NCBI GenBank assembly: GCA_016865015.1
Contig: CP018226.1
Location: 1 to 64,000, forward strand
Source of the DNA: Rhizobiales bacterium IMCC20636
Lineage (GTDB): Bacteria > Pseudomonadota > Alphaproteobacteria > Rhizobiales > GCA-2746425
Length of the DNA stretch: 64,000 bases
Direction of reading: 5' to 3'
The notes under the pieces were generated by a model. That model had not been told where the DNA came from, made no database searches, and saw only the letters and a list, made by a program, of their open reading frames with translations. Positions 41,591-60,100 of the stretch are shown here, piece after piece. Positions within the stretch are counted from its first letter, which is position 1, and every line of letters starts with the position of its first letter. Made by a program: the position numbers and the translations under genes.

Positions 41591-42970
41591 TTACAGATCG
41601 GTCAGCGTGCCCAATGCCCGTTCTGATGCGAAAGCAATTGTTTCGGAGAGTGTGGGATGGGCGTGCACCGTCAAGGCAATGTCTTCCAGTGTGGCACCCA
41701 TTTCCATTGCCAGCACCAGTTCGGCCAACAACTCTCCAGCATTGCGGCCAATGATCGTCGCGCCAAGGATGCGTTTTGTGTCGGGATCATAGACAAGTTT
41801 CGTCATGCCATCGCCGCCGCCCGATGCCAGATTGCGACCGCTGGCCGCCCAGGGAAAACGCGACACCTTATGCGGGATGCCACGTTCCTTAGCCGTGGCT
41901 GCGATCAATCCTACCCAGGCAAGCTCGGGAGATGTGTAGGCAACCGAGGGGATAAAATCAGTATCAAGAGCGCCAGCATGGCCACAGGCAACTTCTGCTG
42001 CCACATGGCCCTGATGGGTTGCGCGGTGGGCCAGCATCGGGTTCCCGGTGACGTCACCAATTGCGAAAATATTGTCCACATTGGTTCGGCACGTAGCATC
42101 AACCGCAATAATTCCGCGCGCATCGATTGCGACACCGGCTGCCTGCGGGTTCACCAAATGGCCATTAGCACTGCGTCCGACAGCCTGAATAACGGCATCG
42201 GCCTTGACCTCGCCGTCAAAGACACCCTCACATGAGAGCCCAAGCGCAGCTTTCGTCGCCTTTACCTCGACCACCTTCGTGCCTGTGTGGATGATGACAC
42301 CCTGCTGTTGCAGCACGTCGTGCAAAATCCGGACGGCCTCAGCATCGGCACCCGGTGCAATCTGTTCCATGAATTCGATGATGGTGACATTGCTGCCAAG
42401 CGCGGCATAGATCGTCGCCATCTCAAGCCCGATGATCCCGCCGCCGACAATCGCCAGCCGTTTGGGCACCTGACGCAATTCCAGCGCGCTGCCGGAGTCC
42501 CAGATCCGCTCATCATCTGGCCAGCCAGGCAGCCGCACCGGAGAAGATCCAACCGCGATCACCGCCTGATCAAAGCTCCAGGCCGCGCCGTCAATCTCCA
42601 GACCGGTCGGCCCGGTGAAACTGGCGGTTCCACGCACAACATTGACCTTGCGTCTTTTCGCAAGGCCGGTCAGGCCATCGGTCAGATGTTTGACGATCCC
42701 GTTCTTTTTCTCTCTCAGTTTGTTCAGATCGATTTTCGGCTCGCCAAAGGAAATGCCCCAGTCGCCAACATGGCGCGCTTCCCGAATCACTTCGGCAGCA
42801 TGGAGCAAGGCCTTGGATGGAATACAGCCCTCGTTCAGACACACACCGCCAAGGTCTGCGCGCGGGTCGACAAGAGTGACATTAAGCCCCAGATCGGCTG
42901 CACGAAAGGCGCAGGCATACCCGCCTGGACCTGCACCCAGCACGACGAATTCTGCATGATTGACTGCCAT
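41591..42970 (-). CDS. lpdA: Dihydrolipoyl dehydrogenase (E3)
   Basis: 459 aa from ATG 42970, preceded by GGAG; an earlier ATG at 42988 lacks one. FAD-dependent enzyme re-oxidising the dihydrolipoyl arm of the E2 component. FAD motif VVLGAGPGGYACAFRA, redox disulfide GGVCLNEGCIPSK, NAD motif LAIVGGGIIGLEMATIYAAL and the C-terminal active-site HAHPTLSET are all intact. Last gene of the M24-2-oxoacid dehydrogenase operon, 39 bp after the E2 core gene; an extra E3 dedicated to this complex is likely. Confidence 0.95.
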   Translation of the reverse strand: MAVNHAEFVVLGAGPGGYACAFRAADLGLNVTLVDPRADLGGVCLNEGCIPSKALLHAAEVIREARHVGDWGISFGEPKIDLNKLREKKNGIVKHLTDGLTGLAKRRKVNVVRGTASFTGPTGLEIDGAAWSFDQAVIAVGSSPVRLPGWPDDERIWDSGSALELRQVPKRLAIVGGGIIGLEMATIYAALGSNVTIIEFMEQIAPGADAEAVRILHDVLQQQGVIIHTGTKVVEVKATKAALGLSCEGVFDGEVKADAVIQAVGRSANGHLVNPQAAGVAIDARGIIAVDATCRTNVDNIFAIGDVTGNPMLAHRATHQGHVAAEVACGHAGALDTDFIPSVAYTSPELAWVGLIAATAKERGIPHKVSRFPWAASGRNLASGGGDGMTKLVYDPDTKRILGATIIGRNAGELLAELVLAMEMGATLEDIALTVHAHPTLSETIAFASERALGTLTDL

Positions 42971-43009
42971 TGGTGTCTCCGAGTGCATTACTTGATTTTA
43001 CGGAACGCT

Positions 43010-43888
43010 CTAGACCATGATCCGGCGCGGATCGGCGATAAGATTCACCAGATAGGTCGTGAACCGTGCGGCATCGGCCCCGTTGATGACGCGATGATCG
43101 TAACTCAGATCAAGCGGCACCATGGGCACTGGCTGAAACATCTCGCCATCCCATATGGGCGTGATTTCTGCGCGGGTGATGCCAAGAATGGCCAGCTCCG
43201 GCGGATTGACAATCGGTGAGAATGCGGTGCCGCCAATGCCACCCAGATTGGTGATTGTCATGGAAGCACCACCCATTTCATTGGGACGCACCTTGCGTTC
43301 CTGTGCGCGGGCAGCGAGATCGCCGATATCTGCGGCAATCTCCCAAAGCCCCTTTTTGTCGACATCCCTGATCACCGGTACCGACAATCCAAACGGCGAA
43401 TCCACGGCAATGCCGATATGGATGTAATGCTTCAGTGTCAGGGTCTTGCCATCTGCACTCAAAGAGGCGTTGAACCGCGGAAATTCCTTGAGGGCACGCG
43501 CGAGTGCCTTCACCTGAAAGGCCAGGCCGGTGAGTTTGACGCCGCGTGCCTCGGCTTCCGGCTTCAAGGCTTTTCGAAACGTCTCAATCGCCGAGACATC
43601 GGCACGATCATGATGCGTCACGGCGGGAATAAGCGTCTGTGCCGCTGCCAGATTTTGCGCAGCAACCTGGGCAAAGCGGCTCATGGGCTCTTCGCTGACA
43701 GGACCGTATTGACTGTGGTCGACATCCCAATAGATCGTGCCATCTGCTGCGGCAGGGCCAGAGGCACCAGCGGCGACATCTTCGCGCGTCAGGGTGGTGC
43801 GGCCCAGATCCTTTGCCAGTATTTCAAGGTCGATCTGTTTTTCGCGCGCCAATGCCCGCACAGACGGAGAGGCAGTCACATCAGACAT
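43010..43888 (-). CDS. 2-oxoacid dehydrogenase E2 acyltransferase core without lipoyl domain
   Basis: 292 aa. A peripheral-subunit-binding domain (about 7-42, SPSVRALAREKQIDLEILAK) and a catalytic core with SYDHRVINGADAARF; His265 and Asn269 correspond to the catalytic pair of AceF-type E2p. No lipoyl domain is present, so the swinging arm must come from elsewhere, most simply the lipoyl protein encoded two genes upstream. ITNLGGIGGTAFSPIVNPPE is a core signature. It transfers an acyl group to CoA; the acyl group is unknown. Confidence 0.88.
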   Translation of the reverse strand: MSDVTASPSVRALAREKQIDLEILAKDLGRTTLTREDVAAGASGPAAADGTIYWDVDHSQYGPVSEEPMSRFAQVAAQNLAAAQTLIPAVTHHDRADVSAIETFRKALKPEAEARGVKLTGLAFQVKALARALKEFPRFNASLSADGKTLTLKHYIHIGIAVDSPFGLSVPVIRDVDKKGLWEIAADIGDLAARAQERKVRPNEMGGASMTITNLGGIGGTAFSPIVNPPELAILGITRAEITPIWDGEMFQPVPMVPLDLSYDHRVINGADAARFTTYLVNLIADPRRIMV

Positions 43889-43897
43889 GTTTGTCTC

Positions 43898-45325
43898 CTA
43901 CCAACTTGCCGAAATATACTGGGTTTCCATGAATTCGAGCATGCCCTCATGCCCGCCTTCCCGGCCCAGACCGGATTGCTTGACCCCGCCAAATGGCGCA
44001 GCAGGATCGCTGACCAGACCACGATTGAGACCGACCATGCCGTATTCCAGCTGTTCACATACTTTCAGCCCGCGCTTCATGTTCTCTGTGAAGACATAGG
44101 CCACAAGGCCGTATTGCGTGTCGTTCGCCTGCGCAATGACTGCGTCCTGATCAGTGAAGGTCTGGATCGCTGCAACCGGTCCAAAAATCTCGTCCTGCAG
44201 ACAGTCGGCATTGTCCGGCACGTTGCTGAGAACGGTGGGCGGATAGAAAAATCCGGGTCCGTCGGGTTTGACGCCGCCCAGGCGGATTTCGGCCCCCTTG
44301 GCAACAGCGTCATCGACGAAGGCGGCAACCTTGTCGCGGGTATCGGCATTGACCAAAGGTCCGACATCAACGTCCTTATCAAGCCCGTTGCCCATCTTCA
44401 GCGCGGCCATTGCGGCGGTGAATTTGGTGGTGAAAGCTTCGGCGATATCTTCATGTATGTAGAAGCGGTTGGCAGCCGTACATGCCTCCCCCAAATTGCG
44501 CATTTTGGCGATCATTGCGTTTTCGACCGCCACATCCACATCGGCATCTTCAAAGACGATCAGGGGTGCGTTGCCACCCAGTTCCATCGCCGGTTTTAGG
44601 ACCTGATCTGCCGCACCATGCAACAGTTTGACGCCGACACTGGTGGAACCGGTGAAGCTGACAACGCGCACCCGTGGATCGTGCAACATGTGATCCACCA
44701 ATGCACCCGTGCGGCGCGAGGGCAGAACATTGACCAGCCCTGCCGGCACGCCGGCCTCTTCAAGCAATGGCATCAATGCCAGCATTGTCAGCGGTGTTTC
44801 GGAGGCGGGTTTGATGATAACGGCGCAGCCTGCAGCCAGCGCAGGTGCAATTTTCCGCGTGCCCATGGCTGCCGGATAGTTCCAGGGTGTGATGAGCACA
44901 GCCAGCCCGGCCGGCTTGTGTTGCACCATGATCCGCGCACCTGAACTTGGCGCATGGGTGAGCAGGCCATCAGCACGCACGGCTTCTTCACTGAACCAGC
45001 GAAAAAACTCTGCAGCATAGGTGGCTTCGCCGATGGCATCGGCATGGGCCTTGCCGTTTTCCAGGGTGATCAGCCGAGCAAATTCCGGCAATCTGGCTGT
45101 CATCAGTTCCCAGGCTTTGCGCAGCACTTCGGCGCGCGCACGCGGGGTCCGCGCGGCCCAATCGGCCATCGCCGCTTCGGCCGCATCAAGCGCAGCGTCT
45201 GCATCAGCGATTTCAGCGGAGGCAACCGAGGCCAAAACGGTCTCGTCGGCCGGATTGAACACGTCAAACCGCTGACCCTCAGACCCTTCGCGCCATTCGC
45301 CATTGATATAAAGATCGGTTTTCAT
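43898..45325 (-). CDS. NAD(P)-dependent aldehyde dehydrogenase, succinate-semialdehyde dehydrogenase-like
   Basis: 475 aa from ATG 45325 (MKTDLYINGEWREG); a longer frame upstream overlaps the lipoyl gene and is not convincing. Catalytic Cys282 in LGEACTAANR, general base Glu248 in ELGGNAPLI, and the cofactor motif FTGSTSVG are present. The C-terminus LGREGGHEGMLEFMETQYIS is typical of the GabD/SSADH group. It sits between the two E2 genes, so it probably oxidises an aldehyde produced in the same pathway. Confidence 0.9.
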   Translation of the reverse strand: MKTDLYINGEWREGSEGQRFDVFNPADETVLASVASAEIADADAALDAAEAAMADWAARTPRARAEVLRKAWELMTARLPEFARLITLENGKAHADAIGEATYAAEFFRWFSEEAVRADGLLTHAPSSGARIMVQHKPAGLAVLITPWNYPAAMGTRKIAPALAAGCAVIIKPASETPLTMLALMPLLEEAGVPAGLVNVLPSRRTGALVDHMLHDPRVRVVSFTGSTSVGVKLLHGAADQVLKPAMELGGNAPLIVFEDADVDVAVENAMIAKMRNLGEACTAANRFYIHEDIAEAFTTKFTAAMAALKMGNGLDKDVDVGPLVNADTRDKVAAFVDDAVAKGAEIRLGGVKPDGPGFFYPPTVLSNVPDNADCLQDEIFGPVAAIQTFTDQDAVIAQANDTQYGLVAYVFTENMKRGLKVCEQLEYGMVGLNRGLVSDPAAPFGGVKQSGLGREGGHEGMLEFMETQYISASW

Positions 45326-45341: not shown

Positions 45342-46346
45342 TCAGAGCAGATGACGCAGTGGCTCATCAAGTCGCGCGGCAAATCCGTCAAGCAAACGTA
45401 TGGCTGTGTCGATATCCGCCAGATCGAGCGCATAGGTCAAGGTCAGTGCAAAATTATCGCCGTCCCTGCAAATGGTCAAAACAGGCGCGTCTTCCGCGCC
45501 GGACGAACCACCGGTAATGCGACTGGAGGTCAGATCGCGCAGGATCAAAGACACCTGCAACGCATCGCCAGGCAAAGCATGAGACAGCGAACCCAGATCC
45601 GGATCGGCAAAGAAACTTGAAATGCGCAGTGTTGGTTGATCAACACGAATATTGACGGTTTCGGCTTTGCTTGCTGCGCGCAGACTGGCCGCTGCGAAGC
45701 TCGCCCAAATCGTCTCGACCGGTACCGCTGCCGTTTCAGTAAGCCAGCTTTGAAACGCCGTAAACCCATCCTGAGAGACACGGGCTGTCAGTTGAGATAT
45801 GGCAGCCGTATTGAGCGTCGTTGCTTTGGCGGGCCGCGCTTTCAGGGTCTCGATATCGCTCGCATGATAGGGCTGGGGCACACCATCAGCGGCCAGATCA
45901 GCCAGATCAAGCCCTTGCTCAAGTGCCAGACGCCGCGCCTTGGGTGACGCAAGAATGCGTCCGTCTGTCCGCAAATCCACCGGCATCGGTTTGGGCGTCG
46001 GCTTTGGTGCATCGTCACCTGGTGATGTGACCTCTTCCGAAGGGGCGGCAGCTGGTTCGCTTGCTTCCGGCTTTTTAACCAGTCGGCTCTGCGTCGGGTT
46101 GTCCGGCTTGCTGTCCGAGATCACGGCAATGACCTGTCCGACCGGCGCGTCTTCACCTTCTCCGGCGAGCAGGGCTTCGATAAACCCGTCATGCGCCGCC
46201 TCGACTTCCATCGTGGCCTTGTCAGTTTCAACCTCAAACAGCACATCACCCACCGCCACAGCGTCACCGGGTTTCTTGTGCCACGCGACAATCAGGCCGG
46301 AATCCTGGGTCATGCCCAAGGCAGGCATGATCACATCATGCGGCAT
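45342..46346 (-). CDS. Lipoyl-domain E2-like protein with degenerate acyltransferase domain
   Basis: 334 aa: an N-terminal lipoyl domain (about 1-80; lipoyl-Lys43 in VETDKATMEVEA), a Pro/Glu-rich linker, a subunit-binding domain (about 130-165; ILASPKARRLALEQGLDLAD), and a C-terminal region that resembles an E2 core in length but lacks the HxxxD/N active-site motif. It probably supplies the swinging arm to the separate catalytic E2 encoded at 43010. It overlaps the E1-beta gene end by 11 bp. Confidence 0.85.
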   Translation of the reverse strand: MPHDVIMPALGMTQDSGLIVAWHKKPGDAVAVGDVLFEVETDKATMEVEAAHDGFIEALLAGEGEDAPVGQVIAVISDSKPDNPTQSRLVKKPEASEPAAAPSEEVTSPGDDAPKPTPKPMPVDLRTDGRILASPKARRLALEQGLDLADLAADGVPQPYHASDIETLKARPAKATTLNTAAISQLTARVSQDGFTAFQSWLTETAAVPVETIWASFAAASLRAASKAETVNIRVDQPTLRISSFFADPDLGSLSHALPGDALQVSLILRDLTSSRITGGSSGAEDAPVLTICRDGDNFALTLTYALDLADIDTAIRLLDGFAARLDEPLRHLL

Positions 46347-47331
46347 GGATCATCTCCCCGGACATCAGCTTGCGTGCGTTTGCGGCGACCCCTTCAGGTG
46401 TCGGTACGGTGATATCTTCAAGGGCGGGAGAAAAAGGGATTGGTACATCCATTGCGCCCATCCGCAGAACCGGCGCGTCGAGATAATAAAACGCCTTCTC
46501 GTTGATGCGACTGGCGATCTCAGCTGTCACGCCATAGCTTTGATGGCCTTCATCAACCACGATGACGCGTGACGTCTTGCGTGCAGATTTCAGCAGGCCC
46601 TCTTCATCCAGCGGCACGATTGTGCGTGGATCGATGACTTCTGCCGAGATATTCTCGGCGGCCAGGATTTCAGCAGCTTTCTGGCAGACCTGAACCATCG
46701 AGGAGGTTCCGATCAGGGTGATGTCCGTGCCTTCGCGCAGAACATTCGCCACGCCAAAGGGGATCAGATACTCCTCCTCCGGCACCGGTGCCTTGTCATT
46801 ATACATCAGCTTGTCTTCGAAAATGACGACCGGGTTATTTTCCCGGATTGCCGTTTTCATCAGACCCTTGGCCTCATAGGCGGAGCTGGGCATGGCTACC
46901 TTCAGCCCGGGAATATGCGCCACCAAAGCGTGGAGGGATTGCGAATGCTGTGCCGCCGAGCGCCGGGTTGCGCCCATATTGGTGCGCAGCACCAACGGGA
47001 CGCTGAGCCTGCCGCCAGACATATAGTGGGTCTTGGCCGCCTGGTTGCACAATTGGTCCATGATCAGGAAAATGAAGTCACCAAACATCAGATCGACAAT
47101 CGGCCGTGCGCCGGTCATGGCCGCGCCCACGGCAATCCCCATGAAGCCGGGTTCCGCTATTGGTGTGTCGACCACACGTGCCGTGCCAAACTCTTCAACC
47201 AGGCCCGACAAGACCTTGAACGGCGTGCCCGCTTCAGCCACATCTTCACCGATGATGAAGGTGGTTGGGTCGCGGCGCATTTCTTCGGCCAGAGCTTCGT
47301 TTACGGCTTGAGATAACGTAATTTCACGCAT
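46336..47331 (-). CDS. 2-oxoacid dehydrogenase E1 component, beta subunit
   Basis: 331 aa, full length for PdhB/AcoB-type subunits: MREITLSQAVNEALAEEMRR, FIIGEDVAEAGTPFKV, then SLHALVAHIPGLKVAMPSSA and VIVVDEGHQSYGVTAEI. It pairs with the E1-alpha gene 9 bp upstream to make a thiamine-diphosphate heterotetramer that decarboxylates a 2-oxoacid. The alpha2-beta2 type is shared by pyruvate, acetoin and branched-chain complexes. The substrate is not evident; acetoin- or pyruvate-type is the closest by pattern. Confidence 0.92.
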   Translation of the reverse strand: MREITLSQAVNEALAEEMRRDPTTFIIGEDVAEAGTPFKVLSGLVEEFGTARVVDTPIAEPGFMGIAVGAAMTGARPIVDLMFGDFIFLIMDQLCNQAAKTHYMSGGRLSVPLVLRTNMGATRRSAAQHSQSLHALVAHIPGLKVAMPSSAYEAKGLMKTAIRENNPVVIFEDKLMYNDKAPVPEEEYLIPFGVANVLREGTDITLIGTSSMVQVCQKAAEILAAENISAEVIDPRTIVPLDEEGLLKSARKTSRVIVVDEGHQSYGVTAEIASRINEKAFYYLDAPVLRMGAMDVPIPFSPALEDITVPTPEGVAANARKLMSGEMIHAA

Positions 47332-47340: not shown

Positions 47341-48357
47341 TCAGCCTCCAACTGTCAGGGATGCAGGGTCGGTCGGTGCATAGACATGCATGTCGACCTC
47401 ACTAATATCTGGATACTTGGCAGCCAAAGCGTATTCAACTGCTGTCTTGGCATCATCCTTCACCCCGGCGCTGATGGCGTCGAGTTCCTCGGAGGTGGCA
47501 ATGCCTTCTTTCGTCAGCCAGGCGCTGAACAGCGTGATCGGATCGCGCTCTTCTTTCCAATGCTTCTCTTCGTCTTTGGTGCGGTAATATTCTCGGTTGA
47601 TGTCACCCACATGGTGGCCGTGATAGCGGTAGGTCATCAACTCTATGAAGAACGGACCTTCACCATTGCGCGCCCTTGCGACAAGTTTTTGCGCCAATGT
47701 GTTGACGGCCAGCACGTCCTGGCCGTCAACCTGATGCGCTTCAATACCAAAGGCTTCTGCGCGCGCGGTGATGGAACCGGCCGCGATTTCCTCCGTGCGG
47801 GTATATTCGGAATAGCCATTGTTTTCACAGGCATAGATGACCGGCAGATTCCACAGGGCAGCCATGTTCATGACTTCGTACATCAGGCCCTGTGCGGTGG
47901 CGCCATCGCCGAAGAAACAGACGGTGACATCGTCCTTGCCAAGCAATTTGGCGGTGAATGCGGCACCGGTTGCAATGCCCATGGACCCACCAACAATTGC
48001 ATTGGCCCCAAGGTTGCCATGGCTCTGATCCGCGATATGCATGGACCCGCCCTTGCCACGGCAATAGCCTTCTTCCTTGCCCAGCAACTCGCAGAACATC
48101 TGCTTGAAGTTTGCACCCTTGGCAACACAATGGCCATGACCGCGATGGGTCGAGGTAATCTTGTCGTCGTCGGTCAGCGCCTCACAAATGCCAACTGCGA
48201 CAGCTTCCTCACCGGAATACATATGCGTCAGACCCGGCATCTTGGCCGTCAGATAAAGCTGATTGGCATTGTCCTCAAATGTGCGGATGCGCACCATCTG
48301 GGTATACATGCGCAAATATTCTTCGGAATTGGTCTTGGTGTTTTTTGCGGGGCTCAT
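47341..48357 (-). CDS. 2-oxoacid dehydrogenase E1 component, alpha subunit
   Basis: 338 aa from ATG 48357 (MSPAKNTKTNSEEY); a longer frame to 48432 overlaps the M24 gene and lacks support. The thiamine-diphosphate motif spans FFGDGATAQGLMYEVMNMAA to CENNGYSEYT, and the regulatory-loop region reads TYRYHGHHVGD. The pattern is close to PdhA/AcoA. First of the four complex genes, 58 bp after the M24 gene. Confidence 0.92.
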   Translation of the reverse strand: MSPAKNTKTNSEEYLRMYTQMVRIRTFEDNANQLYLTAKMPGLTHMYSGEEAVAVGICEALTDDDKITSTHRGHGHCVAKGANFKQMFCELLGKEEGYCRGKGGSMHIADQSHGNLGANAIVGGSMGIATGAAFTAKLLGKDDVTVCFFGDGATAQGLMYEVMNMAALWNLPVIYACENNGYSEYTRTEEIAAGSITARAEAFGIEAHQVDGQDVLAVNTLAQKLVARARNGEGPFFIELMTYRYHGHHVGDINREYYRTKDEEKHWKEERDPITLFSAWLTKEGIATSEELDAISAGVKDDAKTAVEYALAAKYPDISEVDMHVYAPTDPASLTVGG

Positions 48358-48415: not shown

Positions 48416-49717
48416 TTAGTAACGATTGGCAATTGGCAGATGTTGTGCCGGGAAGAGCGAAATGACTTCGCAACCCTTATCCGTCACCACAACTTCTTCT
48501 TCGATCCGGGCGGCCGAGTAGCCGTCTGTTGCCGGGCAATAGGTCTCAAGCGCAAAGACCATGCCGGTCTGGATTTCCATCGGATTTTCCAGTGAGACCG
48601 CACGACTGATGATCGGACGCTCATGCAGGGCAAGACCCAGACCATGGCCGAATTGAAGACCGAAGGCAGACAGCTCGTCCGGGAAGCCGAACTCTTCGGC
48701 TTTCGGCCAGGCCTTGGCGACAACATCAGTGCTGACACCCGGCTTGATCAGGGCAATCGAGGCGTCAATCCATTCACGTGCTTTCACATAGGCATCGTTT
48801 TGCGAGGGTGTCGAGAAGCCGATATTGAAGGTTCTGTAGTAGCAGGTGCGATAGCCCTGATAGCTTTGCAGAATATCAAAGAAGGCCTGATCACCCGGCC
48901 GGAATTGACGGTCGGTGAAATTGTGCGGATGCGGGTTGCAACGCTCGCCGGAGATCGCATTGATGGCTTCCACATCATCGGAGCCCCATTCATAAAGCAG
49001 CTTGTTGGACAGAGCGACGATTTCGTTCTCCTTGACGCCGGGCTTCAGCTCTTCATAGATCGCATGATAAACACCATCGACCATGCTGGCCGCCTGATTG
49101 AGCAGCTGAATTTCATCGATGTTCTTGATCTCACGGGCGGACAACATGACCTGCTGACCATCCACAACATGCAACCCGGCTTCCTGCAGGGCAAAGAACA
49201 TGGCTGTTTCAGCATAATCGACACCGACGGGCATGTCGGCCATGCCTGCCTTTTTGATCAGCGATGCAATTTCTTCGGCATAACGTTTCATCAGGCCAAA
49301 GCTTGGCGGAATGGTGCCGCGCATGCCGACAACACCGGCACGCATGCGCTCAGGGTCCAGCCAATCGCAATATTCGCGGTGATGCACAGCTGCAGATCCA
49401 AAGTCCCAGACATAGGGTTCTTCATCACCAGCCAGCAAAGCGAACCGGCACATCTTGTCGCGTTCCCACTCACCAATCTTGGTGCCGGTGACATAGCGAA
49501 TATTGTTCACGTCAAACAGCAGCATCGAGCCGAGATTTGACTTCTTCAGCGCATCTTTGGAGCGGCTCAGGCGGTAGCGGCGCAGCCTGTCATGATCGAC
49601 CCGGCGTTCAAAATCCACCGCAGTGTGGCCCAAAGCGGGGATGTGACGATCCCACCGCCAGCGTGGATCCATATCACCTGGCTGCAGGATTCTCGGGTTA
49701 AGGGCATTGTTGTTCAT
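48416..49717 (-). CDS. Atypical M24-family (creatinase/Xaa-Pro peptidase fold) hydrolase
   Basis: 433 aa from ATG 49717, which has GGAGG 7-11 bp upstream (inside the ATGGAGG of the alternative start 49729). An N-terminal creatinase-like domain (SMLLFDVNNIRYVTGT) and a pita-bread C-terminal domain. Of the five metal ligands, Asp281 (QAFFDILQ), His358 (GHGLGLALHE) and the two Glu (ALETYCP, ARIEEEVV) are kept, but the second Asp of the usual GYxSDxTRTF is Cys292 (GYRTCYYRTF). That argues against a standard aminopeptidase and for a specialised C-N, C-S or C-O cleaving enzyme. Related to DddP and creatinase only at superfamily level. Confidence 0.85.
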   Translation of the reverse strand: MNNNALNPRILQPGDMDPRWRWDRHIPALGHTAVDFERRVDHDRLRRYRLSRSKDALKKSNLGSMLLFDVNNIRYVTGTKIGEWERDKMCRFALLAGDEEPYVWDFGSAAVHHREYCDWLDPERMRAGVVGMRGTIPPSFGLMKRYAEEIASLIKKAGMADMPVGVDYAETAMFFALQEAGLHVVDGQQVMLSAREIKNIDEIQLLNQAASMVDGVYHAIYEELKPGVKENEIVALSNKLLYEWGSDDVEAINAISGERCNPHPHNFTDRQFRPGDQAFFDILQSYQGYRTCYYRTFNIGFSTPSQNDAYVKAREWIDASIALIKPGVSTDVVAKAWPKAEEFGFPDELSAFGLQFGHGLGLALHERPIISRAVSLENPMEIQTGMVFALETYCPATDGYSAARIEEEVVVTDKGCEVISLFPAQHLPIANRY

Positions 49718-49743
49718 AGTAGCCTCCATGCGCCCTGAGGCGC

Positions 49744-49757
49744 TGTATCGATTGCGT
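49744..49757. promoter_or_regulatory. Degenerate LacI operator before the M24 gene
   Basis: TGTATCGATTGCGT keeps the centre and right arm ATCGATTGCGT of the operator GCAATCGATTGC seen at 57016 and 58199; the left three bases differ. It lies 27-40 bp upstream of the M24 start codon, in the only promoter-sized gap between GST and M24. Confidence 0.55.
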
Positions 49758-49846
49758 TATGGGTCGGGAGGCGGAGCTCCCCCGGAAAACACCAACTTCA
49801 CCCGCAATGCAGTTTGTGAGTTCCGATCATTTCAAAGTCAGGTCGA

Positions 49847-53260: not shown

Positions 53261-54003
53261 TATGCCGCCTCCTCATCTACGCCACCAAGATAGGCATCAA
53301 GCACTTTGGGGTCTTTCTGGACCTCCTCAGGTGAGCCATTGGCGATCACCGAACCATGCGCCATGACAATAACCCGATGGGACAGCCGCATGATCAGTTC
53401 CATATTGTGTTCGACGATCAGAACCGTCAGACCTTGCTTGTTCAAAATTCGAATGTGAGACACAATTTCCTCAAGCAGCGTCGGGTTTACCCCGCCGGCG
53501 GGCTCGTCGAGCAGAATGATTTTTGGATCACTCATCAGCAGCGCCGCAAGATCCATGAGCTTCTTTTGTCCATAGGACAGATTGGCTCCGTCTTCATGCG
53601 CAATTCTGGTGATGCCCAGGAAGTCCAGTATTCCCATTGCCTTGTCGACTTCTGCCTTCGGCATTGCGGGCTTCATGAAATCCCGCCAACCGTTGATCTG
53701 TGCCTGGCAGATGATATTTTCCAGGACCGTCATATCGCTCAAATTCCGGGAAATCTGAAATGTGCGGGACAGACCGAGGCGGGTGATCTGGTGCGGCCGC
53801 AGCATGTCTATGCGCTGACCATCCAGATAAATCTCGCCGCTTGTGATCGGCACCGTTCGACTGATGCAATTGAATGCGGTCGTCTTTCCAGCGCCGTTTG
53901 GCCCGATGAGAGCTGTAATTGTACCTTTTTCCACTTCGAACGAACACTGATCGACGGCCTTGATGCCCCCGTAATGCTTACAAAGCTGACGAACTTCCAA
54001 CAT
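53260..54003 (-). CDS. Branched-chain amino acid-type ABC ATPase, LivG family
   Basis: 247 aa. Walker A LIGPNGAGKTTAFNCISR near residue 31, the LivG-typical RTFQISRNLSDMTVLENI, signature LSYGQKKLMDLAALL (Y instead of the second G, common in LivG), and Walker B IILLDEPAGGVNP. Followed directly by the livF-like gene and preceded by a hairpin after the binding-protein gene. Confidence 0.94.
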   Translation of the reverse strand: MLEVRQLCKHYGGIKAVDQCSFEVEKGTITALIGPNGAGKTTAFNCISRTVPITSGEIYLDGQRIDMLRPHQITRLGLSRTFQISRNLSDMTVLENIICQAQINGWRDFMKPAMPKAEVDKAMGILDFLGITRIAHEDGANLSYGQKKLMDLAALLMSDPKIILLDEPAGGVNPTLLEEIVSHIRILNKQGLTVLIVEHNMELIMRLSHRVIVMAHGSVIANGSPEEVQKDPKVLDAYLGGVDEEAA

Positions 54004-54061: not shown

Positions 54062-55333
54062 TTAGAATTTACCCTTTGGGTATGTCATCTTTGAAGCACC
54101 TTCGAATTCATCTGTCGGATAGACAAATTGAAGTTCGCCACCGTTCCACTGGGTCATGATGTAAGGCTTGTTGATCGGCAAGCCCCGCTCGTCCCAATGA
54201 AACCGACCAAGAACGGTTTGAACCGGAGCATCCTTGGTGCGTGCAGTGAGCCATTCGCCCATGGCAGCATTGTCTGTCGAGCCGGCACCAATGATGGCCT
54301 GTTCGATACCCTGACAAACAGCAAAAGGAATTGCGCTGTCTTCATCCGGCACGTCACCATTGGCCGCTTGATAGGCTGCAACGAAGTCGCTGTTTGAAAA
54401 GGCCTCGCCCGACAACACGGACTGGAAGTTCACGTCTTTATGCCAGGACGTATGGACAAGCACACCTTCTGCAGCATCCCCTGTGCCTTCCAGATATTCC
54501 GATTGCGTACCCTGAGACAGATAGACCAGTTTTGGCGTTGCACCGACAGTCTTCAAGGCGCGAGTCAACTGAACGGCTTCTTCAGCTGATGCGGTCAGAC
54601 CAACGATCAATTCAGCGCCGGAACGCTTGATCGAATTGGCAAGATTGAGCCAATCGTTGAAGCCTTCTTCCGGCCATTTCTCGGTGTAGACAACTTCAAT
54701 TCCTGTGCTGATCAGGAAGCCGGGCGCAAGATCTGCAACCAGACTGCCATCAGCAGGATCGGTGACTTCCAGGCCGAGCAAACCGGCTTCGACAGCATTG
54801 GCGAAGAAATCGTCAGCAGCGACGACAGCCACAGTGCTCGGTGCTTCGCCTTCAGGGATCAGGTCTTCAATGATACCTTTCAGTGTAGCACCGACATATT
54901 CCGCAACATTTGGCTGGAAATAGAAGATGTTCTTGTGACCCTGCGTGTAGATGCGCAACGCGCCGCCAGCAGGCAGCGGATGGACAAAACCGTTTTTCGC
55001 CAGGATGTTGGCGACCGGAAAGCTGAGGCGTGACGAAAATGTGCCGAACACAGCTTCGACGCCGTCAACATTGATGAAGCGTTCATACTGGTTGATGGCG
55101 GTTGCCGTATCGGAGCGGTTGTCCGAGATGATCAGATCAACCTGACGACCCAGAATACCGCCACGTTCGTTGATCATATCAACGCATAGCTGGTAACCAA
55201 GCTGGTGTTTTTCGCCGGCGATTGAAAAACCGCCGGTGAGTGGAAGTGATGCGCCAATTTTCAGATTGTCGGCATATGCCGTGCTGGCCATGAGCGACAT
55301 GGCCGCCGTTGCGGCAACAAGTAAGTTCTTCAT
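54062..55333 (-). CDS. LIV-type ABC substrate-binding protein
   Basis: 423-aa periplasmic protein with a signal peptide (MKNLLVAATAAMSLMASTAYA) and a type I periplasmic binding fold: LKIGASLPLTGGFSIAGEKH, then DMINERGGILGRQVDLIISD, the hallmark of LivK-like proteins. This group binds amides, aliphatic or aromatic acids and amino acids; the ligand is unknown. The gene lies between the 3-HIB-dehydrogenase-like gene and livG. Confidence 0.93.
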   Translation of the reverse strand: MKNLLVAATAAMSLMASTAYADNLKIGASLPLTGGFSIAGEKHQLGYQLCVDMINERGGILGRQVDLIISDNRSDTATAINQYERFINVDGVEAVFGTFSSRLSFPVANILAKNGFVHPLPAGGALRIYTQGHKNIFYFQPNVAEYVGATLKGIIEDLIPEGEAPSTVAVVAADDFFANAVEAGLLGLEVTDPADGSLVADLAPGFLISTGIEVVYTEKWPEEGFNDWLNLANSIKRSGAELIVGLTASAEEAVQLTRALKTVGATPKLVYLSQGTQSEYLEGTGDAAEGVLVHTSWHKDVNFQSVLSGEAFSNSDFVAAYQAANGDVPDEDSAIPFAVCQGIEQAIIGAGSTDNAAMGEWLTARTKDAPVQTVLGRFHWDERGLPINKPYIMTQWNGGELQFVYPTDEFEGASKMTYPKGKF

Positions 55334-55428: not shown

Positions 55429-56391
55429 CTAAGACTTGGCTGGAACTTCCAAACCGGTTGGAACTGATACGTTTTCGCTTTCAAGTTTCATGCCCGAGGT
55501 CAGCGCCACGGTTTCCAAAACTGCAGCAAAATCTTCGGCCAGATAGGCGTCCGGATCATCCTTCAGCATGGCTGCGCCGAAATGCGCCTGAAAGGCTTCG
55601 CGTGTGGTTGCTGTGACAGGCATGGTGACGCCCAGCTTTCGGGCAGCAGCCAGGCCCAAATCGAGATCCTTGCGCATCAGAGCGGGGGTGAATGTGGTTG
55701 TCCAATCAAGATTGACCATCGCGTTTGATTTGTAGCGCGTGAAGACCGATCCCATGACGGACGCATTCATGAAACTCAGAAACGCATGACGGGGAACGCC
55801 TGCTTTTTCGCAAAGCAGCGTAACTTCGGCCAGGTTCTGAGTGACCACACCGAGAAATACATTATGTGCGATTTTGCAGAAACGGGCGAGTTCACCTTCA
55901 CCCACATAGGAAACACCGGAGCCAGCAACAGTCGCGATGAGCGCTTCGACTTTCTGGAATGCTTCCGCTGGCCCTGAACAAACGGCGCTCAGCTTGCCAG
56001 CGCGCACGCATTTGCCATTGCCACTGACCGGAGACGCTACAAGCTGCGCATTGCGCGCTGCAAGGCGCTCGCGAATATCAGCGGATTGCTCGGTGCCGAT
56101 TGACGAGCAATCGACGAAAATTGCGGGCGTTGCATCTCCGGATAGAACACCGTTCTCTCCGAAATAGACCTGTTCAACATCAGCGCCCGTTGACACCATG
56201 GTGAACACGATGTCGCATTCACCCAGATCGCTCGGCGAATCCACAAGTGTCGCGCCCAGATCGGCCAGCGGCTCTGCTTTCGAGCGTGTCCGGTTCCAGA
56301 CATAAACGTCGTTACCACCCCGAACCAGACGCTCCGCCATGGGGTAACCCATGCGGCCCATCCCGATCCAACCTATCTTCTTGCCAGCCAT
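55429..56391 (-). CDS. NAD(P)-dependent beta-hydroxyacid dehydrogenase (3-hydroxyisobutyrate dehydrogenase family)
   Basis: 320 aa. The N-terminal Rossmann motif IGWIGMGRMGYPMAERLVRG fits the family and is followed by VYVWNRT. The substrate loop reads SPVSGNGKCVRAGKLSAVCS and the catalytic Lys lies in FCKIAHNVFLG (about residue 178). Such enzymes oxidise 3-hydroxyacids to semialdehydes, which would suit the aldehyde dehydrogenase encoded downstream. It follows the OsmC gene by 55 bp and precedes the transporter operon. Confidence 0.9.
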   Translation of the reverse strand: MAGKKIGWIGMGRMGYPMAERLVRGGNDVYVWNRTRSKAEPLADLGATLVDSPSDLGECDIVFTMVSTGADVEQVYFGENGVLSGDATPAIFVDCSSIGTEQSADIRERLAARNAQLVASPVSGNGKCVRAGKLSAVCSGPAEAFQKVEALIATVAGSGVSYVGEGELARFCKIAHNVFLGVVTQNLAEVTLLCEKAGVPRHAFLSFMNASVMGSVFTRYKSNAMVNLDWTTTFTPALMRKDLDLGLAAARKLGVTMPVTATTREAFQAHFGAAMLKDDPDAYLAEDFAAVLETVALTSGMKLESENVSVPTGLEVPAKS

Positions 56392-56446
56392 GTTCTACTC
56401 CATATTTTCAGTTTTATTGAATTCTTGTGTGGGTTCTGCGTGAAGA

Positions 56447-56935
56447 TCAGTCGCTGCCGTGGACAATCCAGACCATGTCGACGCGAACCTGCGCATCCCG
56501 GATCAAATTGAGGACCGGGCATCGCACTTCGGTTTCCTCTACGACTTCCTGAAGCCGTGCAGCCGTTTCATCGGTAAACACGCGCGCTTCGACTTTCACA
56601 CTTTGAAAGTGCGGAACCACACCGCGTGCGCCCTGCCGTCCTCGCACGTCAATTGTAAAGGCAGCATCGAATGCAATGCGCTCATAGATGAAGTCCATCT
56701 CTGCAGCCGTGCGGCCGAATGTGACACCTTCACACGCACAAAGGGCTCCCAGGACAGCTTGGAGCGGCGACGCGCCCAGCCCGGTTCCGCCATGGGCAAT
56801 TGGCTCATCCATGGTGAAACAGCCGAATTCGCCAAAATCAACCGTGGTGGCAAGGGTCGCGCCATTTCTAGCGGACAGCGCCTTTCGGCGGATGAGTGGT
56901 GTGGAAAAATCTTTGGCTTCGACAACGGCTCCCAT
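56447..56935 (-). CDS. OsmC-family protein
   Basis: 162 aa from ATG 56935, preceded by GGGAGG; a longer frame to 57055 would run through both operator sites and is not credible. The two conserved cysteines of the OsmC/Ohr fold are visible in LGALCACEGVTFGR and EVRCPVLNLIRD, so it may reduce peroxides or bind an electrophilic or thioester-type metabolite. It is the first minus-strand gene after the divergent LacI promoter. Confidence 0.85.
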   Translation of the reverse strand: MGAVVEAKDFSTPLIRRKALSARNGATLATTVDFGEFGCFTMDEPIAHGGTGLGASPLQAVLGALCACEGVTFGRTAAEMDFIYERIAFDAAFTIDVRGRQGARGVVPHFQSVKVEARVFTDETAARLQEVVEETEVRCPVLNLIRDAQVRVDMVWIVHGSD

Positions 56936-56960
56936 GAGGCCTCCCAGCAAGTTAGGTTGT

Positions 56961-56972
56961 GCAATCGTTTGC
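56961..56972. promoter_or_regulatory. LacI operator (one mismatch)
   Basis: GCAATCGTTTGC differs by one base from the palindrome GCAATCGATTGC 55 bp away. It sits 26 bp upstream of the OsmC start codon, where it could block transcription of the minus-strand operon, or pair with the second site by looping. Confidence 0.65.
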
Positions 56973-57015
56973 ATGATTTGGTAACATCGGCAGAATTCAC
57001 TTGTCAAGACAATAT

Positions 57016-57027
57016 GCAATCGATTGC
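57016..57027. promoter_or_regulatory. LacI operator, perfect palindrome
   Basis: GCAATCGATTGC is a perfect 12-bp palindrome of the kind bound by LacI/GalR regulators with a central CG. It lies in the divergent region between the OsmC and LacI genes. The same 12 bases recur exactly at 58199-58210. Confidence 0.75.
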
Positions 57028-57087
57028 GTTTTGACTCGCACCTGCTAGGTTCCACCGAACAGTCAAGCGGGGAGTATCAAAGGAAGA

Positions 57088-58119
57088 ATGATGAATAAGC
57101 GACTTACATTGAAGGACGTGGCAAAGGCCGCAGACGTGCACGTCTCCACAGTGTCACGGGCCCTCGATCCAAACTCCAGCACATCTCTTTCCGAGGAAGT
57201 TTCCAATCGTATCAAGGTTGTCGCCAAGGAACTGGGCTACCGACCGAACAGAATTGCGGCTGGTCTTCGCACCAATAAATCCATGACTGTTGGAGTCATG
57301 ATCCCAGACATTACCAATACCTTGTTCCCACCGATTGTCAGAGGAATCGAGAGCACGCTCGAGCCCTTTGGCTACGCAACAATCCTTGTCAACACAGACA
57401 ACATACCCGAACGAGAATTGCGGTTGATAGAGGTCCTGAGAGAACGTGGCGTGGATGGCATCATCACCGTTGCGGCACACCGGAATGACCCTGGAATCGC
57501 CGAATTGATCGAACTTGGCATTCCCGTGATCTCATTGAACCGACGGCTGGATATTTCCACAGTTCCATATGTTATCAACGATGATAATGTTGGTATGAAA
57601 CTGCTTCTAAAGCATTTTTTCGATCTCGGTCATCGCAGGATCGGCCACATTGCCGGCCCCAGAGACCTGTCGACCGGGCAAATACGCGCCGCTGCTTTCA
57701 GCGAAGGCTGCAAAGCTCACGGGCTGCCGGACTGCGCCGATCTGATTTATTATTCTGATCGATTCGAGGAAGCAGAAGGCGAGCGCTGCACCGTTGAGCT
57801 GCTGCGCACCAACCCGGATATCACCGCCTTGCTTTGCGCCAATGATCGACTGGCGATTGGTGCTTATTCCGGCATCAGATCATTAGGGCTGCGCGTTCCG
57901 GAGGACATCTCCGTGACCGGCTTCAACGATTCGCCAATTCTGGAATCAATCCCGCCAAGGTTGACCACAGTCAGAATCCAGAAATTTGAAATTGGCCAGG
58001 CCGGAGCAAAACTTTTGCTGAATGCGTTGCAGGGAGGCGCCAAGGGCCCCATTGGAACAGTCCTTCCAGTTGAACTGATCATCCGCGACAGCACTTGCGC
58101 CCCGAGATCCGAATCATAA
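57088..58119 (+). CDS. LacI-family transcriptional regulator
   Basis: 343 aa (or from ATG 57091). The N-terminal HTH is canonical: LTLKDVAKAADVHVSTVSRA, then YRPNRIAAGLRTNKSMTVGV leading into the sugar-binding-like effector domain (residues about 65-340). It is divergent from the OsmC-transporter operon. Matching palindromes in front of three transcription units make it the likely repressor of the whole 41.6-60.1 kb set. The effector need not be a sugar. Confidence 0.93.
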   Translation: MMNKRLTLKDVAKAADVHVSTVSRALDPNSSTSLSEEVSNRIKVVAKELGYRPNRIAAGLRTNKSMTVGVMIPDITNTLFPPIVRGIESTLEPFGYATILVNTDNIPERELRLIEVLRERGVDGIITVAAHRNDPGIAELIELGIPVISLNRRLDISTVPYVINDDNVGMKLLLKHFFDLGHRRIGHIAGPRDLSTGQIRAAAFSEGCKAHGLPDCADLIYYSDRFEEAEGERCTVELLRTNPDITALLCANDRLAIGAYSGIRSLGLRVPEDISVTGFNDSPILESIPPRLTTVRIQKFEIGQAGAKLLLNALQGGAKGPIGTVLPVELIIRDSTCAPRSES

Positions 58120-58446
58120 AAGCAATAGAGCGCTCAAACAAAAACCTTTCTTCGCAAATTCAACCCGACCCATCATTGATACTCGCACATTTCGCATTGC
58201 AATCGATTGCGTAATCCAATAGAAAATTGCGCGAGTTACGGGCCGGTTTTACTGAAATCCGCCAGCCCAACCTGACGCTTGATGAGCAGACACATAATAC
58301 AATTTATAGTAGAACTATGAATTCGCTGAACGAAACCAGATGTTCATGCTTGCAACGCCTCTGCTTGATTTCGTGCCTGGCATGATAGTTGTGTAGCTCC
58401 ATTCTATCATCGCCGACAATGTGATTTCTTAACCCGGAGATTTCTG
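58120..58446. other. Intergenic region with a LacI operator
   Basis: 327 bp between the LacI gene and the DMT permease gene. It contains the exact operator at 58199 and an AT-rich stretch, but no hairpin terminator or gene I can support. A tiny frame (18 codons, from ATG 58339) shows no sign of being real. Confidence 0.45.
58199..58210. promoter_or_regulatory. LacI operator before the DMT permease gene
   Basis: GCAATCGATTGC, identical to the site at 57016, within TTGCAATCGATTGCGTAA. It lies about 237 bp upstream of the DMT gene start, so that transcript would have a long leader, or a further start site lies between. Confidence 0.7.
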
Positions 58447-58893
58447 GTGCATAACGCTCTTTATATGCTGGCTGCCATGCTGGTGGGGATTCTGATTTCC
58501 GCGCAACCGCCCCTGAATGCCGTTCTCGCCAGCCACATCGGCAGCTCCATCGGAGCCACCATCATTTCCATATTTGTGGCTTTGGTATGCATGCTGGCAA
58601 TTTCTATCCTTTTTGGTGCCGGTGAACTGACGCGCCAGACCCTGTCCAGTGTGCCCTGGTGGGCGTTTCTTGCCGGTGCAATCGGTGCGATTTTCGTCGC
58701 TTCCGGAGTCGTCATCACGCCCGTGACAGGTGCGCTGGTCTATTTTGTCTGCCTCATCGCCGGCCAGTTGATTGGCGCGATGCTTGTCGACCAATTTGGT
58801 GCGTTGGGACTGAACGTCAGAGAAATATCCATTCCAAGAATGATCGGAGTGGCTTTGGTCATTGCCGGTGCGGTTCTGGTCAGCTTTAAATAG
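58447..58893 (+). CDS. DMT-superfamily small transporter (DUF606/YdcZ-like)
   Basis: 148 aa starting with GTG. It has five hydrophobic segments (YMLAAMLVGILISAQPPLNA, IISIFVALVCMLAISILF, FLAGAIGAIFVASGVVI, ALVYFVCLIAGQLIGAML, and a C-terminal one), the half-size YdcZ arrangement that usually works as a dimer. GVVITPVTGALVYFVCL fits the family. It may export or import a pathway metabolite, and lies behind a LacI operator. Confidence 0.85.
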   Translation: MHNALYMLAAMLVGILISAQPPLNAVLASHIGSSIGATIISIFVALVCMLAISILFGAGELTRQTLSSVPWWAFLAGAIGAIFVASGVVITPVTGALVYFVCLIAGQLIGAMLVDQFGALGLNVREISIPRMIGVALVIAGAVLVSFK

Positions 58894-59029
58894 ATTTACG
58901 CTATCGCTCCATCGCGGATATCCAGGCCCTGTACAATTAGACAAGAGAGCTATTAAAGCTTGAGTGGCCATCTGCGAGATCAGCAGCAGATCACATGCAT
59001 TTGATGCAGAGAAAAGAAAGCACGGATTT

Positions 59030-60100
59030 ATGACTGAAAAGAACATCGCTCTCATCGTCGGCGCGACGGGTCTGTCAGGCAGTTACACGGGTCGCCTGCT
59101 CAAGGAGCAGGGCTGGACAGTCGTGACTGTCTCGCGCAGTGCTGTCAATCTGGATTTTTCGGATCGTCATATCGCGGCGGATCTGAAGGATGCTGAAGCC
59201 AGCCAGGCAGCGCTGGCGGCAGCTGGTGATGTGACCCACGTGTTTTACTGCACCTGGTCACGCGAAGCCAATGAAGATGAAAATGTCCGCGTCAATGCGC
59301 TGATGATCCGAAATCTGTTTGAGGGGATCGCCGATGCACCCGTGCGCCACGCGGCCTTGGTGACAGGTCTCAAGCATTATCTCGGCTCTTTCGAAGACTA
59401 CGCGAATGTAAAACCCTACACGCCGTTTCTGGAAAACAGCCCGCGTCTGTCCGGCCCCAATTTCTACTATGCGCAGGAAGATGTCCTGTTCGAGATGGCC
59501 GAACGGCAGGGTTTCAGCTGGTCCGTGCACCGCCCCCACACCATGATCGGTCTGGTCATCGGCAATGCCATGAACATGGCGGTGACACTGGCTGTCTACG
59601 CCTCGATCTGCAAACACACCGGCAGGCCGTTCGTCTATCCCGGCTCGCCAGAGCAATATAATGCGGTCACTGACGTGTCAGACGCGCGCATCGTGGCGGC
59701 CCAATTGCTTTGGGCAGCGACCACACCAGAGGCCGCGAATATGCCTTTCAACACGGTCAATGGCGATGTTTTCCGCTGGACGTGGCTGTGGCAGCAGATC
59801 GCAGACTACTTTGGTGTGGAAGCTGCGGACTATCCGGGCCACCCGACCCCGCTGGAAACCCAGATGGTCGACGCCCCCGGAATCTGGCCCGAGATCGTTG
59901 CCAAACACGGGCTTCAGGACATCCCGGTCGGCAAGCTTGCCTCCTGGTGGCACAGTGACGCTGATCTGGGCCGTGACATTGAGTGCTTCACCGACATGAC
60001 CAACAGCCGCGTCCTTGGCTTTGACGCCTATCAGCCGACACCTGACAGCTTCATCCAGGTATTCGATGAGTTGCGGGCACGCAAGATCATCCCATCCTGA
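59030..60100 (+). CDS. PRISE-type SDR (enone 5-beta-reductase-like)
   Basis: 356 aa from ATG 59030 (MTEKNIALIVGATG); ATG 58964 would add 22 unlikely residues. The extended Rossmann motif GATGLSGSYTGRLL, THVFYCTWSRE, the catalytic Lys in TGLKHYLGSFEDY, and Tyr in GPNFYYAQEDVLFE are hallmarks of the progesterone-5-beta-reductase/iridoid-synthase (PRISE) family, which reduces C=C bonds conjugated to carbonyls using NADPH. It lies 136 bp after the DMT gene. The substrate is unknown. Confidence 0.87.
   Translation: MTEKNIALIVGATGLSGSYTGRLLKEQGWTVVTVSRSAVNLDFSDRHIAADLKDAEASQAALAAAGDVTHVFYCTWSREANEDENVRVNALMIRNLFEGIADAPVRHAALVTGLKHYLGSFEDYANVKPYTPFLENSPRLSGPNFYYAQEDVLFEMAERQGFSWSVHRPHTMIGLVIGNAMNMAVTLAVYASICKHTGRPFVYPGSPEQYNAVTDVSDARIVAAQLLWAATTPEAANMPFNTVNGDVFRWTWLWQQIADYFGVEAADYPGHPTPLETQMVDAPGIWPEIVAKHGLQDIPVGKLASWWHSDADLGRDIECFTDMTNSRVLGFDAYQPTPDSFIQVFDELRARKIIPS

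Follow-up and report, generated by a model that had tools for sequence, protein, structure and literature searches.

A conserved LacI-linked regulon, probably for an aromatic compound, adjoins a portable module whose M24 enzyme and E2 are both unusual

Introduction

Several described systems resemble parts of a catabolic locus at positions 41,591 to 60,100 of a 64,000-nucleotide stretch of DNA from Rhizobiales bacterium IMCC20636 (contig CP018226.1, positions 1 to 64,000, assembly GCA_016865015.1; the whole stretch is referred to here as the window). The locus combines a LacI-family regulator gene, an operon for a LIV-type importer and a glutathione S-transferase (GST), and an operon for an M24-family enzyme and a 2-oxoacid dehydrogenase complex. 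Acetoin and pyruvate dehydrogenase complexes share with the window E1 alpha, E1 beta, a lipoyl carrier, an acyltransferase, and E3. However, the window E1 belongs to a separate clade, and the window E2 is split, with a lipoyl half that has no catalytic motif. Protein X of pyruvate dehydrogenase, the mitochondrial E3-binding protein, is likewise not known to have the catalytic motif. It shares lipoyl, E3-binding, and E2-like C-terminal domains with the lipoyl half encoded in the window and is among both its sequence and its fold matches. In contrast to protein X, the window protein (pseudo-E2) is bacterial, is encoded in a catabolic operon, and has a partner acyltransferase without a lipoyl domain; we regard the resemblance as likeness, not as particular homology.

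DddP, ectoine hydrolase, and creatinase are like the window M24 enzyme in sequence family and catabolic setting, whereas the window enzyme has the metal set Asp-Cys-His-Glu-Glu and scores far under the cut-offs of the DddP and ectoine hydrolase models. The metal ligands of the peptidase PepQ are Asp246, Asp257, His339, Glu384, and Glu423 (PMC4213023). DddP has six metal ligands (three Asp, two Glu, and one His), and Asp and Phe stand in it where peptidases have two histidines (PMC5395565). Hydroxyquinol and gamma-resorcylate clusters resemble relatives of the LacI-LIV-GST regulon, which carry dioxygenase-like, BKACE, quinone-reductase-like, FAD ring hydroxylase, or resorcylate-decarboxylase-like genes; the window cluster differs in that it has the M24 module instead of those genes. 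Finally, a LigF-type beta-etherase is the best solved relative of the window GST, with a weak match (76 bits). An initial annotation of the window proposed one LacI regulon for the whole locus and knew of no described pathway with this gene set, and our searches of the open-licence PMC literature likewise listed no matching pathway.

Results

The LacI-family protein (57088..58119, + strand, 343 aa) matches the Pfam models LacI and Peripla_BP_3; its nearest NCBIfam models, RbsR, UriR, and CytR, are all under cut-off. Divergent from it, on the - strand, lie genes for an OsmC-family protein (56447..56935; Pfam OsmC), a HIBADH or beta-hydroxyacid dehydrogenase family protein (55429..56391), a LIV-type periplasmic binding protein (54062..55333; Peripla_BP_6), LivG-type and LivF-type ATPases (53260..54003 and 52532..53260), a LivH/UrtB-type permease (51644..52522), a LivM-type permease (50607..51638, with its start at 51638), and the GST (49847..50602). 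For the GST, the nearest NCBIfam model is maleylacetoacetate isomerase, also under cut-off. Family scans backed every gene family named in the initial annotation, from OsmC to the PRISE-family reductase, and bore out its picture of import plus oxidation in a catabolic setting. Since many window proteins score under NCBIfam equivalog cut-offs, the scans confirm the family and not the exact function.

We found the candidate operators of this regulator by pattern search, which reproduced all of the palindrome positions reported earlier. Exact copies of GCAATCGATTGC are present in the divergent gap between LacI and OsmC (57016..57027), where the site is kept in relatives, and before the gene for a YdcZ-type DMT permease (58199..58210). 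A copy with one mismatch (56961..56972) lies 55 bp from the 57016 site, a spacing that is shared with many relatives. The OsmC start, chosen by its Shine-Dalgarno sequence, is best placed at 56935 behind a ribosome-binding-like GGGAGG, and therefore both the 56961 and the 57016 sites are intergenic. Within the 4.79-Mb genome the exact GCAATCGATTGC occurs three times, the third copy being internal to a coding gene that is unrelated and reads as GGDEF/EAL (not family-scanned). The W-degenerate form GCAAWCGWTTGC occurs five times genome-wide: three copies are at the cluster, all of them intergenic, and two are inside coding genes that read as GGDEF/EAL and as an MFS transporter (neither family-scanned).

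A fourth site, before the M24 gene (49744..49755), is probably a degenerate operator, with three mismatches and an intact right arm, ATCGATTGCGTT. The window holds 36 matches to the 12-mer at three or fewer mismatches against 54.8 expected, which is no enrichment, so this site by itself means little, and the argument for it lies in the longer right arm. That arm is exact only at 49747 and 57019 in the window and has one mismatch at 58202; at one or fewer mismatches the window holds three copies against 0.74 expected, a number reached by 4 of 100 shuffles. Exact palindromes precede the M24 gene in two relatives (loci L035 and L037). Before the DMT gene, promoter-like matches number three, compared to 0.8 expected.

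We next considered relatives of the locus in two collections. The first comprised the best 80 loci fetched by M24 from bacterial and archaeal genomes (M24 81-96% identical), in which LacI was counted at 40% identity or more and operators at two or fewer mismatches. LacI is present in 12 of these 80 loci, at 42-56% identity to the window LacI. All 12 have the palindrome in the gap between LacI and OsmC or HIBADH, with 23 sites in 3,006 bp, where the rate seen in other types of locus would predict 0.11. The two sites are 53-55 bp apart in seven loci, 66 bp apart in two, and adjacent in one, while two loci have a single site. In the stretch examined, the 12 loci contain HIBADH (12), GST (11), the whole LIV set (nine), DMT (six), and OsmC (five).

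The second collection, independent of M24, came from a search with the LIV binding protein in samples of 385 genomes (class), 394 genomes (family of genome G087), and 17 genomes (family of genome G728). It gave 10 loci outside the own genome, one of which (L170) is the same locus as L019 of the first collection (100% match). All 10 have palindromes at two or fewer mismatches upstream of the operon, a count made without a separate control, and in eight of them the palindromes are paired, 53-56 bp apart; the two palindromes of L168 carry two mismatches each. These loci contain LacI (eight), GST (eight), HIBADH (six), OsmC (four), DMT (two), and M24 (three: L165, L169, and L170); in L167 the contig ends before the GST. 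Roughly 10 kb of further sequence in L161-L164 and L168 holds no M24 gene.

Our data indicate that the stable core of the system is LacI, the palindrome, the LIV importer, and the GST, with HIBADH as a frequent member and OsmC and DMT present in some loci. The sequence features predict a LacI-type regulon, with a LacI gene linked to kept palindromes that have a central CG and stand before the operon. The proposal of one LacI regulon with kept operators is supported by the palindromes of all 12 LacI-bearing M24 loci and all 10 LIV-selected loci. Co-conservation of the gene set with the palindrome extends to the LacI-LIV-GST part and not to the M24 operon or PRISE: the free separation of neighbours that had been named as fatal to a single regulon is seen for the M24 part and not for the LacI-LIV-GST part. 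The linkage of the M24 operon in only three of the 10 LIV-selected loci speaks against the view that it is a fixed part of the gene set. The case for one regulon is strong for LacI and OsmC-HIBADH-LIV-GST; DMT is a likely member, the M24 operon of the own genome a probable one, and for PRISE the case is weak. Relatives of DMT come directly after GST in seven M24 loci, and several relatives have GST, then DMT and/or a hydrolase gene, and then M24 in one direction.

The YdcZ-type permease (58447..58893, + strand; Pfam DMT_YdcZ) is followed by the PRISE reductase (59030..60100, + strand), a member of the progesterone-5-beta-reductase/iridoid-synthase family downstream of DMT and of the 58199 operator. 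PRISE is not supported as a kept neighbour of the LacI cluster: among 15 genomes with the cluster or its relatives, five have any match and two a close one. The closer copy (79%, genome of L060) is on another contig beside a ribose-type permease gene, among neighbours that read as Gfo/Idh and alcohol dehydrogenase genes. The other (62%, genome of L062) is on the same contig as its M24 gene, approximately 22 kb away, and the 20 kb around it hold only three palindrome matches at two mismatches, none of them operator-shaped. The number and distant placement of these copies do not support PRISE as a core member, contrary to the initial annotation, and its membership depends on its position after the 58199 operator in the own genome. 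Beyond PRISE, positions 60335-64000 (- strand) encode a D-2-hydroxyacid dehydrogenase, a weak 2-oxopent-4-enoate hydratase-like protein, a DHDPS-family aldolase, and an IclR regulator, which form another catabolic cluster adjoining the LacI cluster.

We asked what the gene content of relatives suggests about the substrate. Genes for an intradiol dioxygenase, a short-chain dehydrogenase/reductase (SDR), a BKACE protein, and a quinone-reductase-like protein come after the GST gene in L163 and L164 (the last three in L164 by likeness to L163). The best solved relatives of the L163 dioxygenase are PnpC and hydroxyquinol 1,2-dioxygenase. BKACE is also present in L161, and L162 has an aromatic-ring FAD hydroxylase gene divergent from LacI together with an acetoacetate-decarboxylase-family gene. 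Molybdenum hydroxylase genes are found in L035 and L170 (scanned) and in L037, L060, and L161 (by likeness), with only the large subunit in L062. A gamma-resorcylate-decarboxylase-like amidohydrolase gene is present in L031 (scanned) and L062 (by likeness). A C-C-hydrolase-like gene occurs in seven M24 loci; for the one compared, the best solved relative is 2,6-dihydroxypseudooxynicotine hydrolase. Since relatives without M24 carry ring-hydroxylation and ring-cleavage genes, the LacI-LIV-GST front end probably serves an aromatic or heteroaromatic compound. These genes allow the candidates suggested initially (amides, thioethers, and aromatic ethers) to be narrowed down.

Below position 49744, the - strand carries the second operon, which begins with the M24 gene (48416..49717) and continues with E1 alpha (47341..48357), E1 beta (46336..47331), the pseudo-E2 (45342..46346), an SSADH-type aldehyde dehydrogenase (ALDH; 43898..45325; 534 bits, cut-off 646), a lipoyl-less E2 acyltransferase (E2cat; 43010..43888), and E3 dihydrolipoyl dehydrogenase (41591..42988; TIGR01350, above cut-off). 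The ALDH gene thus sits between the two E2 halves. Among the M24-fetched loci with enough sequence, the order after M24 is well kept, with E1 alpha in 77 of 79, E1 beta in 70 of 72, lipoyl E2 in 69 of 72, ALDH in 61 of 69, and E2cat in 50 of 67.

We compared the M24 tree (83 rows, 77 labelled by front-end genes and six unlabelled) with the genes in front of the module. Loci with at least one of a ribose-type binding protein, a ribose-type permease, and a solute-binding-protein-like regulator were called type A (54 rows); six rows are of a second ribose-like type, and 17, the window included, are type B (LacI/LIV/GST/HIBADH). Exceptions within type B are L017, a hybrid with a ribose-type transporter, and L031, L032, and L042, which have OsmC and HIBADH and no LIV genes in the stretch examined. 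The B label changes 10 times on the tree, with at least six changes forced by well-supported branches, yet it is clustered beyond what shuffles give (mean 15.5 changes, 0 of 500 as low). The closest relatives of the window M24 (95-96%) belong to type A loci. These repeated changes of front end make M24-E1-E2-ALDH a portable module. The initial annotation had the M24 enzyme cleave the imported compound; its direct action on what the LIV transporter brings in cannot be assumed.

M24 was found in six of 398 genomes of a phylum-wide sample, the own genome included. Within the genus it is present in two of five genomes, and this HIBADH in one of five, the window genome only; the cluster therefore looks acquired. 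The own genome has a second M24 cluster (L088, positions 824001-844000), with an M24 87% identical to the first, a ribose-like importer, an FAH-family gene, and a different LacI. A single site with two mismatches was found there, GCAATCTATTGG, without the central CG, and it is unlikely that this cluster belongs to the same regulon. One Streptomyces and one Paenarthrobacter plasmid have M24 beside an NAD(P)-dependent oxidoreductase gene (which reads as HIBADH-like) and E1/E2 genes.

Other features of the M24 loci are recorded here as separate observations. In L088, E1 alpha matches as two overlapping pieces in different frames and has a frameshifted or mis-sequenced look. Apparent sarcosine-oxidase subunit genes follow the M24-E1-E2-ALDH operon in L031 and L038, an unscanned reading that was not used. 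On a plasmid of Paenarthrobacter sp. R1 (L097), genes for RidA, M24, an NAD(P)-dependent oxidoreductase, an SDR, and lpdA lie approximately 2-7 kb away from sulR, a flavin reductase gene of sulfonamide degradation; this link was not used either. Type A clusters encode a protein of approximately 610 aa (L029, 7203-9035, and relatives, 63 loci in all), the middle and C-terminal portions of which match a Pfam extracellular solute-binding domain. Its N-terminal part has no Pfam match and may bind DNA, which would make the protein a possible fused sugar-sensing regulator. L074 (14619-15932, scanned) and L079, which have no ALDH and E2cat genes at this point, carry a DRL-family oxidoreductase gene after the module.

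The M24 enzyme itself has an unusual predicted metal site. Aligned with M24 peptidases, its metal set is Asp281, Cys292, His358, Glu391, and Glu406; Cys292 stands where the peptidases have the second Asp ligand. This Cys is found in all 84 rows of the alignment (the window protein counted twice and the second copy of the own genome once), in which Asp281, His358, Glu391, and Glu406 are kept. The six distant relatives, from four actinobacterial plasmids, one haloarchaeon, and one member of another class of the same phylum, also all have the Cys, so that the Asp-Cys-His-Glu-Glu clade spans Alphaproteobacteria, another class of their phylum, Actinobacteria, and a haloarchaeon. Two further M24 proteins near the module in L024 and L031 have no such Cys. 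Position 365 is His in 84 of 84 rows and His, Trp, or Tyr (two, three, and one) in the six distant relatives. The ligand pattern of M24 peptidases (PepQ and Xaa-Pro aminopeptidase), Asp-Asp-His-Glu-Glu, is not matched because the second Asp is Cys.

The window enzyme is far under the cut-off of every characterised model that it matched: DddP (112.7 against 600 bits), ectoine hydrolase (59.3 against 613), and PepQ (65 against 630). Its best PDB sequence match is Xaa-Pro aminopeptidase, and many plasmid records label its relatives Xaa-Pro peptidase family protein. Among the identities considered, the DMSP lyase DddP is rejected by its score and by the Cys in place of a metal Asp; the ectoine hydrolase DoeA is rejected by its score; and a Xaa-Pro peptidase is disfavoured by Cys292. 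The AlphaFold model (mean pLDDT 54.9) was too poor for use.

From the sequence, all parts of a 2-oxoacid dehydrogenase complex appear to be encoded (E1 alpha, E1 beta, lipoyl E2, acyltransferase, and E3), with the acyltransferase on a separate chain. That E2 is split, as the initial annotation had it, is a point on which motif counts, profile alignment, and fold comparison agree. Relatives of the lipoyl chain keep ETDK[AS] in 61 of 65 and the DHR motif in none of 65. Conversely, E2cat, which in the window has an intact DHRVINGAD motif, keeps the DHR motif in 50 of 50 relatives and has a lipoyl-type TDK motif in none of 50. The C-terminus of the lipoyl chain aligns to E2cat by profile comparison (probability 93%), and a model of the chain (pLDDT 84, pTM 0.49) gave Foldseek matches to E2 catalytic cores. 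We found that the chain retains the lipoyl motif while DHRxxxG is gone, the pattern of an E3-binding-protein-like pseudo-E2, and that it consists of a lipoyl carrier, an E3-binding domain, and a degraded E2 catalytic domain. A neighbouring E2cat is missing at 17 loci. The 16 genomes checked (L039 left out) have a copy above 45% elsewhere in two cases (68% and 46%) and matches of 33-37% in the rest; some are metagenome bins and may be incomplete, and L024 and L063 are also without E1 at the locus. Many such complexes thus seem to borrow an acyltransferase or do without.

E1 was compared in a tree with the AcoAB-like and pyruvate dehydrogenase copies of the own genome. It forms its own clade (support 100/98 for E1 beta and 96/95 for E1 alpha), the position of which relative to pyruvate dehydrogenase and AcoAB rests on long branches. 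Elsewhere in the own genome (L137, 4610000-4622000), an acetoin-dehydrogenase-like E1/E2 set lies in an apparent sugar cluster with kinase-like and epimerase-like neighbours (unscanned).

Discussion

We propose, with about even confidence, that the own genome carries a LacI-regulated route for the import and breakdown of a likely aromatic compound, the product of which is passed to the portable M24 module. A substrate-responsive LacI would bind the twin operators between lacI and the OsmC-HIBADH-LIV-GST operon, for which a spacing of 55 bp (approximately five helical turns) would be suited to looping, and would also bind a single operator ahead of DMT and a weak one ahead of the M24 genes. It would hold the catabolic route off until the substrate or a product appears. 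The LIV transporter would then import a small compound, most likely aromatic or heteroaromatic, and GST, OsmC, and the HIBADH-type dehydrogenase would process the compound and its electrophilic intermediates, steps to which relatives may add ring hydroxylases, molybdenum hydroxylase, and the products of decarboxylase-like and C-C-hydrolase-like genes. In the own genome the product would pass to the lower module, where M24, presumably a hydrolase rather than a peptidase, would split a shared intermediate. The dedicated E1-E2-E3 complex with its split E2 would convert a small 2-oxoacid (or acyloin) to acyl-CoA, and ALDH would oxidise the other fragment from M24 cleavage.

Several observations weigh against this proposal. 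M24 is absent from seven of the 10 LIV-selected loci (L166 and L167 being shortened by a contig end), and two other actinobacterial plasmids carry M24 but no E1/E2 genes over the stretch covered. A degenerate operator precedes M24, and promoter and terminator scans of 49600-49900, as of 56900-57100, found none. No ring-cleavage gene, hydroxyquinol 1,2-dioxygenase included, is among the scanned cluster genes of the window; the rest of the own genome was not searched. In the tree, with its long branches, E1 falls outside both the acetoin and the pyruvate types. The E2 of the Paenarthrobacter plasmid is a single chain with lipoyl-type and DHR motifs, so not every M24 cluster has a split E2. Ribose-type neighbours and SDRs are commoner beside the M24 module and suggest sugars or polyols, not aromatics, as the shared intermediate.

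A possible, if doubtful, alternative is that two independent systems are neighbours here: the LacI regulon would end at GST (with DMT), and M24-E1-E2-ALDH-E3 would be otherwise controlled and degrade something else. The linkage of M24 in only three of 10 LIV-selected loci, the six or more changes of the B label, the degenerate 49744 site, and the type A surroundings of the closest M24 relatives all suit it. It is harder to square with the exact right arm at 49747, the exact palindromes before M24 in L035 and L037, the co-directional order of GST, DMT and/or hydrolase, and M24 in several relatives, and front-end labels more clustered than in any of 500 shuffles. We consider it unlikely that the locus is instead a sugar or polyol pathway, in which LIV would be an alternative importer and SDRs or HIBADH would give an acyloin that the E1-E2 complex cleaves acetoin-style. 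Most labelled M24 modules do lie beside genes for ribose-type transporters or regulators and for SDRs. One of these SDRs reaches 258.7 bits with the acetoin reductase model (cut-off 304), and the RbsR model is nearest to LacI, under cut-off. Against these stand the aromatic ring-cleavage genes of M24-less LacI-LIV-GST relatives and the separation of the E1 clade from AcoAB.

Two further readings concern the M24 enzyme. Peptide or amino-acid use, with M24 as a Xaa-Pro peptidase and LIV as importer of the products, agrees with the name in many plasmid records and with the best PDB match. Given Cys for the second metal Asp in 84 of 84 rows, peptidase models far under cut-off (PepQ, 65 against 630), and the catabolic-oxidation context with GST and OsmC, we find it very improbable. 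We give even less credence to a DMSP-type lyase, a DddP relative releasing an acrylate-like product for oxidation by HIBADH and ALDH. DddP is the best NCBIfam model, but its 112.7 bits compare to a cut-off of 600, and DddP needs three metal Asp (PMC5395565), for one of which the window enzyme has Cys. In addition, position 365, aligned near the histidine exchange of DddP (PMC5395565), is His in 84 of 84 rows.

Returning to the proposal of a LacI-regulated route that feeds the M24 module, we tentatively suggest, as a possibility short of a probable one, that the Asp-Cys-His-Glu-Glu clade may be a new non-peptidase class of M24 enzyme. Its members might, for instance, hydrolyse a cyclic or linear diketone by C-C cleavage or ring opening, and Cys292 would replace a metal ligand or act as nucleophile. 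Together with its own E1/pseudo-E2/free acyltransferase complex, it may in proteobacteria form a portable hub that has repeatedly been given sugar- and aromatic-type front ends.

Our data indicate that an orphan catabolic system, conserved and probably dedicated to an aromatic compound, is linked here with a portable module in which both the M24 enzyme and the E2 are unusual. This module is widespread, as the best 80 loci at 81-96% identity illustrate, and we found no description of it in the open-licence PMC literature. The division of the E2 job between a motif-less lipoyl carrier and a lipoyl-less acyltransferase is a bacterial parallel to the mitochondrial division between E2 and E3-binding protein. 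The substrate of the M24 enzyme, once found, would re-annotate a family that is now named Xaa-Pro peptidase in many records, and it would reveal a compound valuable enough to marine and soil bacteria for routes into its breakdown to have been swapped repeatedly.

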